From: Anaerolineaceae bacterium
GTDB taxonomy: Bacteria > Chloroflexota > Anaerolineae > Anaerolineales > Anaerolineaceae
DNA length: 64,000 bases
Assembly (NCBI GenBank): GCA_002702705.1
Contig: PABH01000024.1
Span: 62,001-126,000 of the forward strand
Direction of reading: 5' to 3'
In this document: positions 58,649 through 63,318 of the stretch, piece after piece
How positions within the stretch are numbered: position 1 is the stretch's first letter
How the letters are laid out: each line of letters begins with the position of its first letter
Program-made: the position numbers and the translations under genes
Notes under the pieces: model-generated
What the model was told of the DNA's origin: nothing
What the model saw: only the letters and a program-made list of their open reading frames with translations
Database searches by the model: none

Positions 58649-59470
58649 TTACTCTGTTTTTATCGTGGTGATTATTCTTTCACGTTCCTTGATAAATTGT
58701 TCCACATTCAAAGCAAGATCCAGATGGTTTAATTCCTGACTAAGCCGTATCAGTTGTGGTATTACCAATCCTGAGTTTTCTATGAGTTCCTTGTCCTTAA
58801 AAAAATGTTTTGTGGATGTATCGTGAATCATCTTTCCTTCATACATCAGTATTATTCTATCAACATTTTCAACGACGAAATCCATATCGTGTGAAATAAT
58901 CAAGGTTGTCTTATTTTCCAGGTTTAAGGTTTTCAACACTTTAGAAAATTGTTTCTTTTCTTTCATATCGAGACTAGCGGTGGGTTCATCAAAGATTAAC
59001 ACTGGGGTTTGCATGGCCAGAGCAGAGGCCAGGGATACCCGTTTGCGGCCTGAATAATTCAGGTCACGTGGGTTGAAGTTGGCTTCATTTGTTAAACCCA
59101 TTAAGCTCAATGCTTGTTCAACCATGTTTTCGACTTGTGATGCCGAATATCCCAGGTTTTGTGGTCCAAATGCGACTTCGTCCCAGACTCGTTGGCGAAA
59201 CAACTGCTCATCCGGATTTTGAAACACATAAGCTACCCGCTGGGCTAATTGAGCAGGGCTGTGCTCTGAGGTTTTCCAGTCCCCAACCCAAACGGTTCCA
59301 CTTTGTGGACGAAGTAAACCATTCAAATGGCGTGCAAATGTTGTTTTACCGGAACCATTTGCACCTATTAACGCAACTTTTTCTCCGGGATTGAGCGTAA
59401 CAGAAATATTGTCCAATACTTTTACATTTCCTGGATAGGTGAAATGGATATTTTCTGCACAAATTCGCAT
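58649..59470 (-). CDS. ecfA2: ECF transporter ATPase with altered signature motif
   Basis: A 273-residue ATPase of the energy-coupling-factor class. Walker A is GANGSGKTT, the Q-loop VFQNPDEQLF, Walker B VLIFDEPTASLD and the switch His ISHDMDF. The usual LSGGQxKR signature is shortened to NYSGRKRVSLA, missing one or two residues; whether it still pairs across the dimer with EcfA1 is unknown. The ATG at 59470 follows a GGTGGGGG stretch inside the 3' end of the upstream gene. It is the last of the ECF operon. Confidence 0.88.
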   Translation of the reverse strand: MRICAENIHFTYPGNVKVLDNISVTLNPGEKVALIGANGSGKTTFARHLNGLLRPQSGTVWVGDWKTSEHSPAQLAQRVAYVFQNPDEQLFRQRVWDEVAFGPQNLGYSASQVENMVEQALSLMGLTNEANFNPRDLNYSGRKRVSLASALAMQTPVLIFDEPTASLDMKEKKQFSKVLKTLNLENKTTLIISHDMDFVVENVDRIILMYEGKMIHDTSTKHFFKDKELIENSGLVIPQLIRLSQELNHLDLALNVEQFIKERERIITTIKTE

Positions 59471-59475
59471 TATTT

Positions 59476-60345
59476 TCAACCCCCACCTTTTTTGATCGAA
59501 CTGACCCGGTTAAACCCCAAGACCGATTGTTCCAGTGTAACCGGTAAGGGTGTTTGACTAGGCCATAAACCATAAATTTGGCTTTCACGGGCGGCCTGTG
59601 TATAACGTAAATAATCAATACCAAAGGTCTCCAATAACGGCGAGGTAAGAACAAATTCCGGATTACCATCCAATACAATGCTCCCTTTGTTTAGGGCAAT
59701 CACCCGATCCGCAGTTTGAGCTATCCATTCCAAATTGTGTTCGGTTATTACAACGGTTGTGTTTTTGGTGGTTAAGGTTTGAATAATATGAAAAACTTCC
59801 CTGCTGCCTTGTGGATCAAGCATGGCTGTCGGTTCATCAAGTACTAGTACTGGCGGATCAAGTACGAGCATAGATGCCAGCGCCAAACGTTGTCGCTGAC
59901 CGCCGGAAAGTGTGAATGGAGATCTGTCTCGTAAATCAATTAACCCAGTGAGGCGTAACACATGCTCAATCCGCTCAGGCATTTCAGAGGGTGATACTCC
60001 CAGATTTTCAAGTCCAAAAGCCACTTCTTCAAAAACAGTGTATCGCATTTCGGAGATTTGATTAGTTGGGTTTTGTAATACAAGACCAACACGTCCTGCA
60101 AATTCACCGGGTGTATGATTACGGGTATTCATACTATTAATTGTTACATTCCCCAACATTCTTCCATTAAAAAGAGTTGGAATCAAACCAGATAAAACCA
60201 GACACAAAGTGGATTTGCCAGCACCGTTAGCACCAATCACTGCAACGAATTGCCCTGCTTCAATCTGAAGATTGATTTCTTTTAAGGCGGGTGTGTGGCT
60301 TAAAGGGTAATAGTAGGTTAATCCGGTAACCTCAATCATAACCAT
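59476..60345 (-). CDS. ecfA1: ECF transporter ATPase
   Basis: A 289-residue ATPase. Walker A GANGAGKST, Q-loop VLQNPTNQI, signature LSGGQRQRLALAS and Walker B VLVLDEPTAMLD are all intact, with TEHNLEWI as switch region. It energises vitamin or metal uptake with EcfA2 and EcfT. The ATG at 60345 follows GGAGAAAA with 8-base spacing and overlaps the end of ecfT by 14 bases. Upstream in-frame codons up to 60387 are not supported by a Shine-Dalgarno. Confidence 0.92.
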   Translation of the reverse strand: MVMIEVTGLTYYYPLSHTPALKEINLQIEAGQFVAVIGANGAGKSTLCLVLSGLIPTLFNGRMLGNVTINSMNTRNHTPGEFAGRVGLVLQNPTNQISEMRYTVFEEVAFGLENLGVSPSEMPERIEHVLRLTGLIDLRDRSPFTLSGGQRQRLALASMLVLDPPVLVLDEPTAMLDPQGSREVFHIIQTLTTKNTTVVITEHNLEWIAQTADRVIALNKGSIVLDGNPEFVLTSPLLETFGIDYLRYTQAARESQIYGLWPSQTPLPVTLEQSVLGFNRVSSIKKGGG

Positions 60346-61120
60346 TTCGTTTTCTCCAGAACTCGAATACCAAGAAACATACGGCAATCACGATCATACC
60401 CCAGCGTAAGACTTGTTGTTTGGTCGTATCAGGAATTTCAGTTAAATTCGTTTTGGGGGTGGGGGCACTGAACCCGCGCACCTCCAATGCTAAGGAACGT
60501 TCTTCCACATCTACCAGGGCACTGAAAACAAGTGGAGCAACCAATGGAAAAAGCGCTTTTATTCTCTGCAAAAGGTTTCCCTGTGTCTCTAATCCACGTG
60601 ATTGTTGGGCAGACCGGATGGTTTGAATGCGCCTTGCCATCTGAGGCAGTAATAAAAGAGGGCTGCCCAACAAATAAACTAATTTTCGGGATAGACCGGT
60701 TTGTTCAAGAGCTTGTATTAATGAACCTGGATGTGTGCTGGTTACAAGTAATAACGAAGAAGCTAAGGTTGAAACCAGACGAACTACGATCAAGGAAGCA
60801 TACATCAGACCTTCTTGCCCCAATACAAACGGACCCAATCTCATAAGGATTTGGTGGTTTGCAGGGCCAAAGAATCCATGAACTATGAATAGTATTACTG
60901 CAATCGGGGTTAATAACTGCACGATAAGTTTTAAAGCTCGCCATGCTATGCCAGCTGACCACAAAATCAAAATGGAGATTACCCCGGGTAATATGGCAGA
61001 TAACCATTTGTTTGGACCGCCGAAAATGATTGCTATGGCTGATAGGCTAAAAATTAATTTTGTTATGGGGAACAACCGATGTAACCAGCTGTCCCCCGCT
61101 GTATATAGGCCAAGGGTCAT
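60332..61120 (-). CDS. ecfT: ECF transporter transmembrane subunit EcfT
   Basis: A 262-residue membrane protein. It has about five hydrophobic helices and the two C-terminal coupling motifs typical of EcfT: SAQQSRGLE and SLALEVRGFSAP, which contact the ATPases. It starts MTLGLYTAGDSWLHRLFPITK, with PxxK as in many EcfT sequences. The gene is 12 bases after the S subunit and overlaps ecfA1. Confidence 0.9.
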   Translation of the reverse strand: MTLGLYTAGDSWLHRLFPITKLIFSLSAIAIIFGGPNKWLSAILPGVISILILWSAGIAWRALKLIVQLLTPIAVILFIVHGFFGPANHQILMRLGPFVLGQEGLMYASLIVVRLVSTLASSLLLVTSTHPGSLIQALEQTGLSRKLVYLLGSPLLLLPQMARRIQTIRSAQQSRGLETQGNLLQRIKALFPLVAPLVFSALVDVEERSLALEVRGFSAPTPKTNLTEIPDTTKQQVLRWGMIVIAVCFLVFEFWRKRNGYD

Positions 61121-61132
61121 TATTTATAATGA

Positions 61133-61729
61133 TTATTCAAGGACGGCATTGGCACGAGGTGTACGCGAGATAAAACGCTTTGGTAAGCCTTTGACAATAA
61201 ACCAGGCCAGAAAAGCCGTCACTATTTTATCAAGCAGGTTATCGGTAATGACAGTGATAATTACCGCGCTGAACAGGTCCTTTCCGGTTGCCAATAAATA
61301 GGCAGTGATAAAATCAGCGCCACTGCCGGTAATTCCGCCAAACATATAAACCCGAATTGGAATAGCAATGATTGAAAGGGCCACGGTGATGATTACACCG
61401 CTTATAATAACGCCCCACCATTTTTTAAAGAGACCGTATTTCGCACACAAACCAGCTGCAATACCAATAATCATTGCAACAGGGGCAAAGGCTGCCGCTA
61501 CGGGATCAGTGATTAATCCCCAGATGAGATTGGTTAGCAGACCGGTTAAACCACCTGCCCAGGGACCAGCAACCAGGGCAACCAATACGGTACCAATGGA
61601 GTCCAAAAAGATAGGCAGCTTAAGTAAAGAAACAATCTGACCTATTACGATATTAAGTACAATGGCGACAGCGATCAAAGCAAGTGTGAAGGTGGAAAAA
61701 TCTTTTTTGAGTTGTTCTTTAAGAGACAT
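61133..61729 (-). CDS. ECF transporter substrate-binding S component
   Basis: A 198-residue membrane protein with about six helices and the Ala/Gly-rich first-helix region FTLALIAVAIVLNI that S components use to bind EcfT. A characteristic LPIFLDSIGTVLVALVAGP is followed by GLTGLLTNLIWG. The substrate is not clear; none of the well-known families (RibU, BioY, ThiT) is obvious. Its neighbours, a DsrE protein and a PPC/DUF296 protein, may hint at the substrate or the regulation. GGAAATC precedes the start. Encoded with EcfT and two ATPases, it forms a dedicated (group I) transporter. Confidence 0.85.
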   Translation of the reverse strand: MSLKEQLKKDFSTFTLALIAVAIVLNIVIGQIVSLLKLPIFLDSIGTVLVALVAGPWAGGLTGLLTNLIWGLITDPVAAAFAPVAMIIGIAAGLCAKYGLFKKWWGVIISGVIITVALSIIAIPIRVYMFGGITGSGADFITAYLLATGKDLFSAVIITVITDNLLDKIVTAFLAWFIVKGLPKRFISRTPRANAVLE

Positions 61730-61749: not shown

Positions 61750-62142
61750 TTAAGATTGGATATCCAGTTCCGGATATCCGGTTTGGGGATCGAATGTGCG
61801 TAAGAAACGCAAGCTGTCCAGTTCTGCCAGGACAATTTCAGCTGTGGTGTAAATTTCACTACCATCCATCAGGTGAGCTCCATAGGTGCGTCCTTCACCA
61901 TCCGAAATGGCAATGTGGTAATGTGAACCGTGAATTGAAACTACACCGGTTAATGAGACAATTTCAAATTTTCCTTCCATCAAAACGGATTTTTCCTGAT
62001 TAGCAAACCGGAGGGCGGCTTTTTGCAGGCTGCCCACACAAGTGACCACACAGGCAGCTTCTAATTTGTGTTTTTCAGCAAAAGAATCCAGTACTGACTT
62101 AAGGTCTTCCCTTGGGTGTAAACGCAGGGCATAGGTTTTCAT
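61750..62142 (-). CDS. PPC-domain (DUF296) DNA-binding-like protein
   Basis: A 130-residue protein of the PPC/DUF296 family, known from plant AT-hook proteins and bacterial homologues. It begins MKTYALRLHPREDLKSVLDSF and has the signature GSHYHIAISDGEGRTYGAHLM, with two conserved His that form a metal site in solved bacterial structures. The function in bacteria is unsettled. It lies between the DsrE gene and the S component in one operon, so it probably supports the transported compound. Confidence 0.85.
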   Translation of the reverse strand: MKTYALRLHPREDLKSVLDSFAEKHKLEAACVVTCVGSLQKAALRFANQEKSVLMEGKFEIVSLTGVVSIHGSHYHIAISDGEGRTYGAHLMDGSEIYTTAEIVLAELDSLRFLRTFDPQTGYPELDIQS

Positions 62143-62154
62143 ACGCCATAACCT

Positions 62155-62505
62155 CTACAATGTGATGACCTTATGGGCGCGGCGTTGGGCTTCAATGATA
62201 TCCGTCATTCCACCCACAATACCCACTTGTTTTTTCTCGATCAGGTTATAAAAATTCAGGCAAGTATTACAAAGGATGAGGTGTACACCTTTTGATTCTA
62301 AAGACCGGAGTGAATCCAGTACGGGTGAACCCTCAACAACCAAATGGACTCCCTCAGCGTAAAAACAAATAACAGCTGGGAGCACGTCGTTTTCATCGAG
62401 CAATTTAAAATAGGTTGTAATTAGTTTTTTTTGAAGAATTGGATCGGCATCACCCATGCCATTTCGGGTGATTAATAAGACAGTTTCAGAATCAGGTACG
62501 GACAT
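62155..62505 (-). CDS. DsrE-family protein resembling the YedF C-terminal domain
   Basis: A 116-residue DsrE/DsrF-type fold. The distinctive LILCNTCLNFYNLIEKKQVGIVGGMTDIIEA parallels the Cys-containing region of the sulfurtransferase-like YedF family linked to selenium metabolism. The Cys pair could carry persulfide or bind metal. AGGAGG lies 6 bases before the ATG. It is the first gene of the six-gene ECF operon and follows the structured leader. Confidence 0.82.
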   Translation of the reverse strand: MSVPDSETVLLITRNGMGDADPILQKKLITTYFKLLDENDVLPAVICFYAEGVHLVVEGSPVLDSLRSLESKGVHLILCNTCLNFYNLIEKKQVGIVGGMTDIIEAQRRAHKVITL

Positions 62506-62553
62506 ATTGGCCTCCTATAAATTGTTTTACGCCAAGAAATTCAGCGTAATTGA

Positions 62554-62590
62554 CAAAATAAAACCGCCGTTAGTTGGCACCAACGACGGT
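62554..62590 (-). terminator. Attenuator-like terminator in the ECF operon leader
   Basis: On the minus strand a 9-base stem ACCGTCGTT/AACGGCGGT (one wobble) with a 10-base loop is followed by TTTTATTTTGT. It is located 49 bases upstream of the DsrE start and so would stop transcription before the first gene. Confidence 0.75.
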
Positions 62591-62628
62591 AAGGATGGCC
62601 AAAATAATATCAAACTGCGATAAAATTC

Positions 62629-62703
62629 CCGCCACACCGTGAGGCGCGCAACAAATGCAAAGAGAGCAAACTTGCACTCAGGCGGAATGTTCAAATGTGG
62701 CGG
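62629..62703 (-). ncRNA. Predicted structured leader RNA, possible riboswitch
   Basis: On the minus strand CCGCCACA (62696-62703) pairs with TGTGGCGG (62629-62636), an 8-base closing stem. Inside, CCGccTGAG pairs with CTCACGG (62677-62685 with 62637-62643), and GTGCAA with TTGCAT forms an inner hairpin (about 62655-62677). It lies directly before the attenuator-like terminator. No known riboswitch class was recognised. Confidence 0.5.
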
Positions 62704-62720
62704 TAATTGATAATCATTAC
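62703..62720. promoter_or_regulatory. GTAATTGATAATCATTAC palindrome-like site
   Basis: Inverted ends GTAAT/ATTAC around TGATAATC, near the presumed start of the ECF operon transcript. It resembles Fur-family boxes (GATAAT/ATTATC units), which would fit metal-dependent control; no test is possible here. Confidence 0.4.
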
Positions 62721-62895
62721 TTTTTCCTGTTAGCAATACATAATACGACTGATTAATAAATTTTAGCACAAGAATTAAAAAATCAACGCAACTAAGAGGT
62801 CCAAAAAAAATTTAGAGTTTGACCTTCCTCGTGAAAACAAACACTTAATAATTTCTATCGAGGTAAATTTTCCTCCTACCTGATATACTTAATCC

Positions 62896-63318
62896 ATGAT
62901 TTTTGTAAATGACAATCTGAGTATTGATGAAAATGAACTTGAATACCGCTATATTCGCGCAGCGGGACCGGGGGGCCAGAACGTAAACAAGGTTTCAACA
63001 GCGGTCCAGCTTCGTTTTGATGTGGCTGCATCCAGCCTGCCACAGTCAGTGAAGGAACGTTTGTTAAAGATAGCGGCTGGACGCATTAATAAGGACGGTA
63101 TCTTGCTGATTCATGCCCGCCAATACCGCACCCAGGAGCAGAACCGGTTTGATGCGGAAGAGCGCCTGGTAGAAATCATCAAACAAGCGCTGATAAAACC
63201 CACCCAGCGCAAAAAGACGCGTCCATCCATTACGGCGAAAGCCCGCCGTGTGGCGGATAAAAAACATCGTGGAGAGGTCAAACGTTTACGGAATTACAAT
63301 CCGGATGAGTGGGAATAA
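62896..63318 (+). CDS. arfB: Alternative ribosome-rescue factor ArfB-like hydrolase
   Basis: A 140-residue class I release factor-like protein. The catalytic GGQ is in AAGPGGQNVNKVST, with the C-terminal basic tail RRVADKKHRGEVKRLRN that enters the empty mRNA tunnel. ArfB hydrolyses peptidyl-tRNA on stalled ribosomes that lack a stop codon. No Shine-Dalgarno precedes the ATG; TGATATACT, an extended -10, ends 6 bases before it, so the mRNA may be leaderless. It is divergent from the ECF operon and co-directional with the PAS-GGDEF gene. Confidence 0.92.
   Translation: MIFVNDNLSIDENELEYRYIRAAGPGGQNVNKVSTAVQLRFDVAASSLPQSVKERLLKIAAGRINKDGILLIHARQYRTQEQNRFDAEERLVEIIKQALIKPTQRKKTRPSITAKARRVADKKHRGEVKRLRNYNPDEWE

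Follow-up and report, generated by a model that had tools for sequence, protein, structure and literature searches.

Known leaders and the leader in the window

In the trp and his leaders, amino-acid operons are controlled by ribosome-mediated attenuation. The leader described here lies on the minus strand of a 64,000-nucleotide stretch of Anaerolineaceae DNA (the window) and shares with those leaders a regulatory codon inside a short ORF, an intrinsic terminator, downstream genes for the nutrient that is presumably sensed and, as proposed, hairpins that exclude each other. It differs from them in the regulatory codon: where the trp and his leaders use a run of sense codons, we propose a single UGA that is read as selenocysteine (Sec), which needs SelB and a SECIS-like hairpin. 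A second relative is the 5′ leader of E. coli selAB, in which a SECIS-like element reportedly mediates translational repression when SelB binds. In both cases the 5′ leader of selenium genes would carry a SECIS-type RNA that acts as feedback sensor; the selAB leader, however, is said to have neither a Sec-encoding leader ORF nor a terminator, both of which are proposed here, and it belongs to other genes in another phylum. Finally, bacterial SECIS elements such as that of E. coli fdhF also follow directly on an in-frame UGA, yet the fdhF element lies within an enzyme gene and the hairpin here within a leader ORF of only 29-40 residues. For a selenocysteine-encoding leader peptide used for attenuation, no precedent was found in searches of the open PubMed Central library. 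What would be new here is attenuation by a leader peptide whose sensor is a recoded stop codon, and this is the best explanation of the data presented below.

The initial annotation had described the region as a riboswitch-like attenuator of no recognised class ahead of a DsrE-DUF296-ECF operon, and much of its description holds. The leader (62505-62770) folds at -79.4 kcal/mol (z = -4.0), and none of 200 dinucleotide shuffles was equally stable. The 8-base closing stem it had pointed out, CCGCCACA (62703-62696) with TGTGGCGG (62636-62629), is present and forms part of a stem P1 with the 5′ arm CCGCCACATT (62694..62703) and the 3′ arm GGTGTGGCGG (62629..62638), the latter also being the proposed antiterminator arm. 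The terminator-like stem with T-run was likewise recovered, as a 12-bp intrinsic terminator hairpin (62563..62590) with a T-rich tail from 62562; the 501 bases around the leader contain two terminator-like sites, compared with 0.5 expected from shuffles. Between the leader ORF and this terminator lies an anti-Shine-Dalgarno stretch, GGCCATCCTT (62591..62600), able to pair with the Shine-Dalgarno region of DsrE (AGGAGGCC, 62509..62516). The entire structure precedes the DsrE start at 62505, as had been stated. A hairpin inside P1 exists as well, but the one that matters among relatives (62679-62662) does not belong to the lowest-energy interior fold of the window copy on its own. A simple sigma-70 scan of 62450-62950 gave no promoter-like site.

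A covariance-model search of the window with Rfam 15 found no family at the gathering threshold, and at E-values up to 10 the region 62400-62900 gave four weak matches only, far under the gathering scores. A known riboswitch class was rejected on this basis, in agreement with the annotation, and the leader stands outside Rfam. What had been overlooked is that this structure is traversed by a short ORF containing an in-frame UGA. Judged from the DNA, the leader seems to encode a very small peptide in which the UGA serves as a selenocysteine codon, and we consider it likely that the leader is a ribosome-mediated transcription attenuator that senses selenium through this codon and is ON when selenium is short.

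The leader ORF and its SECIS-like hairpin

In the window, the leader ORF (62610..62717, minus strand) encodes 35 residues, MIINYRHI-U-TFRLSASLLSLHLLRASRCGGNFIAV, followed by a stop. It consists of eight codons, the in-frame UGA proposed as selenocysteine codon (62691..62693), a SECIS-like hairpin within the 26 codons after the UGA, and a second stop, again UGA (62610..62612), which sits 19 nt upstream of the terminator. A Shine-Dalgarno-like AGGA (62725..62728) precedes the start. We compared the ORF across 24 leaders, that of the window included, comprising 11 of the type found ahead of DsrE or PCC genes and 13 of the type found ahead of YedE or desulfurase genes; L179, a further leader described below, was left out of these statistics. 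The UGA is invariant in the alignment. In all 24 leaders a start codon lies 7-10 codons ahead of it and a second stop 20-30 codons past it, giving ORFs of 29-40 residues (35 in 12 of them), and a 4-base Shine-Dalgarno core precedes the start in 20. A start 6-11 codons upstream with no intervening stop occurs in the UGA frame of 24/24 leaders and in 0/24 for each of the other two frames.

The residues before the UGA mostly follow the pattern [YH][RH][RH]T. The codon immediately before it specifies Thr in 23 of the 24 leaders, with a varying third base, and the window has Ile instead. A regular expression that required this motif and a start close by was applied to 1.3 Mb of partly overlapping loci; it matched leaders only and recovered 22 of 25, missing three with deviating residues (those of the window, L163 and L166). 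The leaders are related to one another (for example, five come from one genus, and L068 and L037 are nearly identical), so that counts over the 24 are not independent. The 13 YedE/desulfurase-type leaders, moreover, were chosen from 30 loci partly for showing the ORF and a selenium gene, whereas the 11 DsrE/PCC-type leaders had been gathered before the ORF was noticed; their 11/11 was therefore not selected for it.

The SECIS-like hairpin, GAGUGCA-AGUU-UGCUCUC (62662..62679, minus strand), was recognised by comparison with relatives; its stem spans about +12 to +29 after the UGA. The corresponding E. coli fdhF stretch (present in 5368 of 5426 genomes of that species) has GG at +19/+20, which we take to be the loop bases of the fdhF SECIS. 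The hairpin loop sits at the same distance from the UGA, and GG occupies +19/+20 in 13 of the 24 leaders; the window has AG there, and the loop deviates in the clade of L068 and in L145. Throughout the leader set, an in-frame UGA is followed by a hairpin at SECIS distance, with one U-U mismatch in the stem of the window copy, where the hairpin is not part of the minimum free energy fold.

The position of this hairpin and the selenium genes downstream would also suit a sensor that works without readthrough. Here the UGA would simply end a peptide of eight codons, and binding of SelB.Sec-tRNA-Sec to the hairpin would refold the leader or block the ribosome, for which the selAB leader reportedly offers a precedent. 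An untranslated hairpin, however, needs no open frame beyond the UGA, and the stretch of 20 codons past it is free of stops in 24, 16 and 13 of the 24 leaders (UGA frame, +1 and +2), with 15.0 expected from base shuffling. Nor does it need the second stop, found 16-49 nt upstream of the terminator wherever a terminator was identified (23 leaders). We regard such a sensor as unlikely, though as the strongest of the alternatives.

Stems, terminator and the proposed switch

Checked across homologous leaders, the stems covary. P1 and the hairpin together show seven pairs with two-sided changes in an alignment of eight sequences, five in that of the 11 DsrE/PCC-type leaders and five in that of the 13 YedE/desulfurase-type leaders, against 0-3 in slid controls each time, and the covariation score exceeds all 500 column shuffles in each of the three alignments. 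The number of pair types, in contrast, is not above that of shuffles, of which 114, 488 and 39 of 500 were as high in the 8-, 11- and 13-sequence sets. P1 fails at two pairs in 5 of the 11 DsrE/PCC-type rows and at one pair in 8 of the 13 YedE/desulfurase-type rows, and it is mostly broken in L166. Coding constraint may account for part of the conservation of the P1 5′ arm, which shares bases with the codons immediately preceding the UGA; the matching changes in the 3′ arm are not explained in this way. A further stem of our first model, P2 (ATGCAGC/GCTGCGT), is poor in the window and in others and was omitted from the later model R2.

A covarying stem and hairpin with a terminator and an anti-Shine-Dalgarno stretch are what one would find if the P1-hairpin region bound a ligand directly, perhaps a selenium or sulfur compound, as in a classical riboswitch. 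The conserved bases, however, coincide with the codons, the UGA and the SECIS-like positions of an ORF that has its own start and ribosome-binding site, and Rfam offers no match; we consider direct ligand binding quite improbable. The annotation was right to see an attenuator-like leader ahead of this operon, and that leader proves to be conserved and covarying, but it is better explained otherwise than as an aptamer for a small molecule. Since the conserved core CACYTGA and the hairpin correspond to codon context, UGA and SECIS-like element, and selenium genes follow, the sensor is most likely the translating ribosome.

A terminator follows the second stop in 23 of the 24 leaders, in a search confined to that region and run without shuffle control; in nine of them the tail has only four T in eight, and in G009 no terminator was found. 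That the ORF is instead a functional small selenoprotein, as the conserved [YH][RH][RH]T-U motif might suggest, encoded by the first gene of an operon whose terminator-like hairpin merely tunes expression, is hardly credible given that residues past the hairpin vary widely between leaders and that this terminator separates ORF and operon in all but one of them.

Returning to attenuation by a ribosome that senses selenocysteine, we picture the switch as follows. The ribosome would translate the leader ORF as far as the UGA. With ample selenium, SelB.Sec-tRNA-Sec would be available and the UGA would be read as Sec through the SECIS-like hairpin; the ribosome could then move on to the second stop, where the P1 3′ arm would be unable to hold the 5′ arm of the terminator, so that the terminator would form and the operon be off. 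With too little selenium, the ribosome would stall at the UGA and mask the P1 5′ arm, and the P1 3′ arm thus freed would pair with the terminator 5′ arm as an antiterminator, letting transcription continue into the selenium genes. Translation of the ORF, insertion of Sec, binding of SelB and the sign of the response (low selenium meaning ON) are steps that we infer from this arrangement.

The proposed antiterminator switch finds its support in folding models. Duplexes beating shuffles (z < -1.65) were obtained for P1 in 20 of 23 leaders and for the antiterminator, which is weak when taken by itself, in nine of 23. In the model, the mean probability of the terminator over the 23 leaders is 0.75 in the free leader, 0.48 with a ribosome at the UGA and 0.81 with a ribosome at the second stop. 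When the 3′ part of the ORF is shuffled, the value for a ribosome at the UGA is 0.89, and 18 of the 23 leaders fall below their own shuffle mean (Wilcoxon p = 2.5e-4). The 3′ part of the ORF holds the terminator 5′ arm with a mean probability of 0.60 when the ribosome is at the UGA, compared with 0.28 both in the free leader and at the second stop, a rise seen in 17/23 for each comparison; before the 3′ half of the terminator is made, the value is 0.61 compared with 0.50 in shuffled sequences (17/23, p = 0.02). In the window copy, the predicted terminator probability is 0.92, 0.98 and 0.99 across the three ribosome states, with no drop when the ribosome is at the UGA, and its 5′ arm is held with probability 0.65 in the free leader, 0.71 with the ribosome at the UGA and 0.01 once the ribosome has reached the second stop. 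As the terminator forms there in all three states of this equilibrium model, a switch in the window would have to be kinetic.

Compared with shuffled sequences, pairing of the anti-Shine-Dalgarno stretch with the Shine-Dalgarno region of the first gene reaches the 5% level or falls below it in 18 of 23 leaders (for L163, the start taken was that of a short ORF before the desulfurase). Lying downstream of the second stop and ahead of the terminator, this stretch suggests a further layer of control at translation that may add to termination.

Distribution, downstream genes and selenium

We found 25 such leaders in Chloroflexota, where nearly all searching was done. Homologues of DsrE and PCC were sought in 151 related genomes, and the same leader stood upstream in several. 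Covariance models were trained on five leaders (R1) and on eight (R2), their training loci matching by construction. R2 added L037 (64.7 bits), L043 (46.1) and L041 (36.3), all upstream of DsrE. The leader was found in 8 of 30 DsrE loci, these being the best 30 of 58 matches, and 22 are without it by these models. A scan of 84,980 genomes for the S component gave 123 loci, of which 80 were kept; R1 placed the leader in five of the 80, and 75 are without it by these models, R2 having been run on 24 of the 80. All five loci are labelled as Chloroflexota, one of them as Herpetosiphon. Among them, L068 matched R1 only at E 0.07 and scores 68.7 bits with R2, whose training includes it, and L065 (genome G009) has the leader ahead of PCC-S-T-A-A with no DsrE gene. 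The PCC-S-T-A-A operon also occurs in Desulfobulbaceae, Enterobacteria, Alphaproteobacteria and other groups, at whose operons R1 found no such leader. Other or divergent upstream regions occur in L046, L067 and L073-L075; in L046, L073 and L074 the divergent leaders upstream of DsrE have a GCGCAGGTCTGCGC hairpin and an anti-Shine-Dalgarno/terminator/Shine-Dalgarno-like arrangement.

With R2, 396 genomes of the class yielded 31 matches (E up to 0.1) in 29 genomes and 30 loci. Fourteen of these loci are leaders: one is that of the window, 12 stand ahead of YedE and one stands ahead of a desulfurase. The 13 YedE/desulfurase-type leaders have R2 E-values of 9e-8 to 0.015. Excluded from the leader counts were 11 loci in which a script found no ORF with in-frame TGA (L160, L162, L165, L167, L171-L173 and L175-L178) and five that have such an ORF without the motif (L156, L164, L168, L169 and L174); by eye, L156, L160, L164 and L178 lie opposite a long Clp-like ORF. 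A third model, R3, built from the YedE/desulfurase-type leaders, gave five matches in 301 genomes of the phylum, with the motif only in L179. Since R3 misses the leader of the window at E 0.01, the link between the two leader types is made by R2, by the ORF motif and by gene context.

In the window, the leader precedes a DsrE-family gene (62155..62505; Pfam PF02635), a PCC-domain (DUF296) gene (61750..62142; PF03479), a CD3073-like ECF transporter S component (61133..61729; PF12822, and NF045596 at 149 bits, under its 180-bit cut-off) and an ECF block (58649..61120) with the T component (60332-61120) and two ATPases (59476-60387 and 58649-59479), all on the minus strand. The DsrE protein resembles the C-terminal part of the selenium protein YedF (TIGR03527 positions 84-194, E 1.2e-29, 103.6 bits with a cut-off of 110). 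Across the set, leaders precede YedF-like DsrE and/or PCC-ECF genes, YedE, a selenocysteine-lyase-like desulfurase, or Sec-selD. The putative selenium transporter seleno_YedE (TIGR04112) was identified in 9/9 downstream proteins scanned, and YedE was assigned by eye downstream of L154, L157 and L170; of the 11 YedE loci reached by script, eight encode a TusA-like protein after YedE. The SclA-like desulfurase downstream of one leader is over the cut-off of TIGR01977 and under that of SclA. L179 precedes a selD with in-frame TGA, and seven of the 24 genomes carry selD on the strand of the leader, 1.5-3.6 kb further downstream. YedE, YedF and DUF3343 are tied to selenium use by a comparative study (PMC5322559). 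The genes after the leaders (YedE, SelD, SclA-like and YedF-like) thus belong to the metabolism of the nutrient that we propose is sensed.

The genome of the window has SelB (377 bits), tRNA-Sec (72.4 bits) and a SelD with one in-frame TGA in the context CAG-U-ASK; none of its five Fdh-alpha matches contains an in-frame stop. All 24 leader genomes have a SelD over cut-off with one in-frame TGA, and 2 of 14 control genomes have a SelD over cut-off. The UGA context was read for 8 of ten SelD loci, and the stretch in L185 is probably not the selD UGA. tRNA-Sec is above cut-off in 21 of the 24 leader genomes, each of the 21 scoring at least 66 bits, versus 5 of 14 controls. It is missing above the Rfam cut-off in G005, G009 and G524, despite SelD with in-frame TGA, either through incomplete assembly or through a divergent tRNA-Sec. 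SelB is over cut-off in 314 of the 396 genomes of the class, so that its presence in leader genomes says little. In G238 (C69 113515-116009), tRNA-Sec lies ~2.3 kb ahead of the leader-yedE operon.

We lean towards the view that these leaders form a regulatory class, widespread at least in Chloroflexota, in which Sec recoding of one leader-peptide UGA is the selenium sensor of an attenuator that controls YedE, SelD, YedF-like genes and an ECF importer, whose cargo would then be a selenium compound. If true, the recoding machinery of the 21st amino acid would be linked directly to transcription control and would serve as a gauge, not for making an enzyme, which possibly answers how bacteria sense selenium. 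Two orphans would also gain a hypothesis: the PCC-ECF (CD3073-like) transporter, as a hypothetical candidate importer of a selenium compound, and stand-alone DsrE. ORFs of this type are easily overlooked by gene callers that end genes at UGA.

Among distant PCC-ECF operons, that of Desulfopila (Desulfobulbaceae; L078, 9336-11132) is followed by selD, a TusA-like and DsrE-like (YedF-like) stretch and tRNA-Sec, an arrangement that supports a selenium role of the transporter; within the stretches examined, it is the only one of the 80 S-component loci with a SelD match. In L072, tRNA-Sec lies about 1.7 kb past the PCC-ECF operon. An Rfam search of 12 distant PCC-ECF loci for hints at the ligand gave only these two tRNA-Sec genes; an aragorn scan of L063-L142 for tRNA-Sec gave none, though Rfam had two, and Rfam was preferred. 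In G005 (L143 6412-8500, minus strand), an aldehyde ferredoxin oxidoreductase-like gene and a ferredoxin-like ORF, assigned by eye, lie directly upstream of the leader; the former was seen there in this genome alone, and a tungsten or molybdenum link was dropped. The divergent neighbour of the leader in the window (62896-63318, plus strand) is a candidate ArfB/YaeJ-type ribosome rescue factor, recognised by eye from its GGQ.
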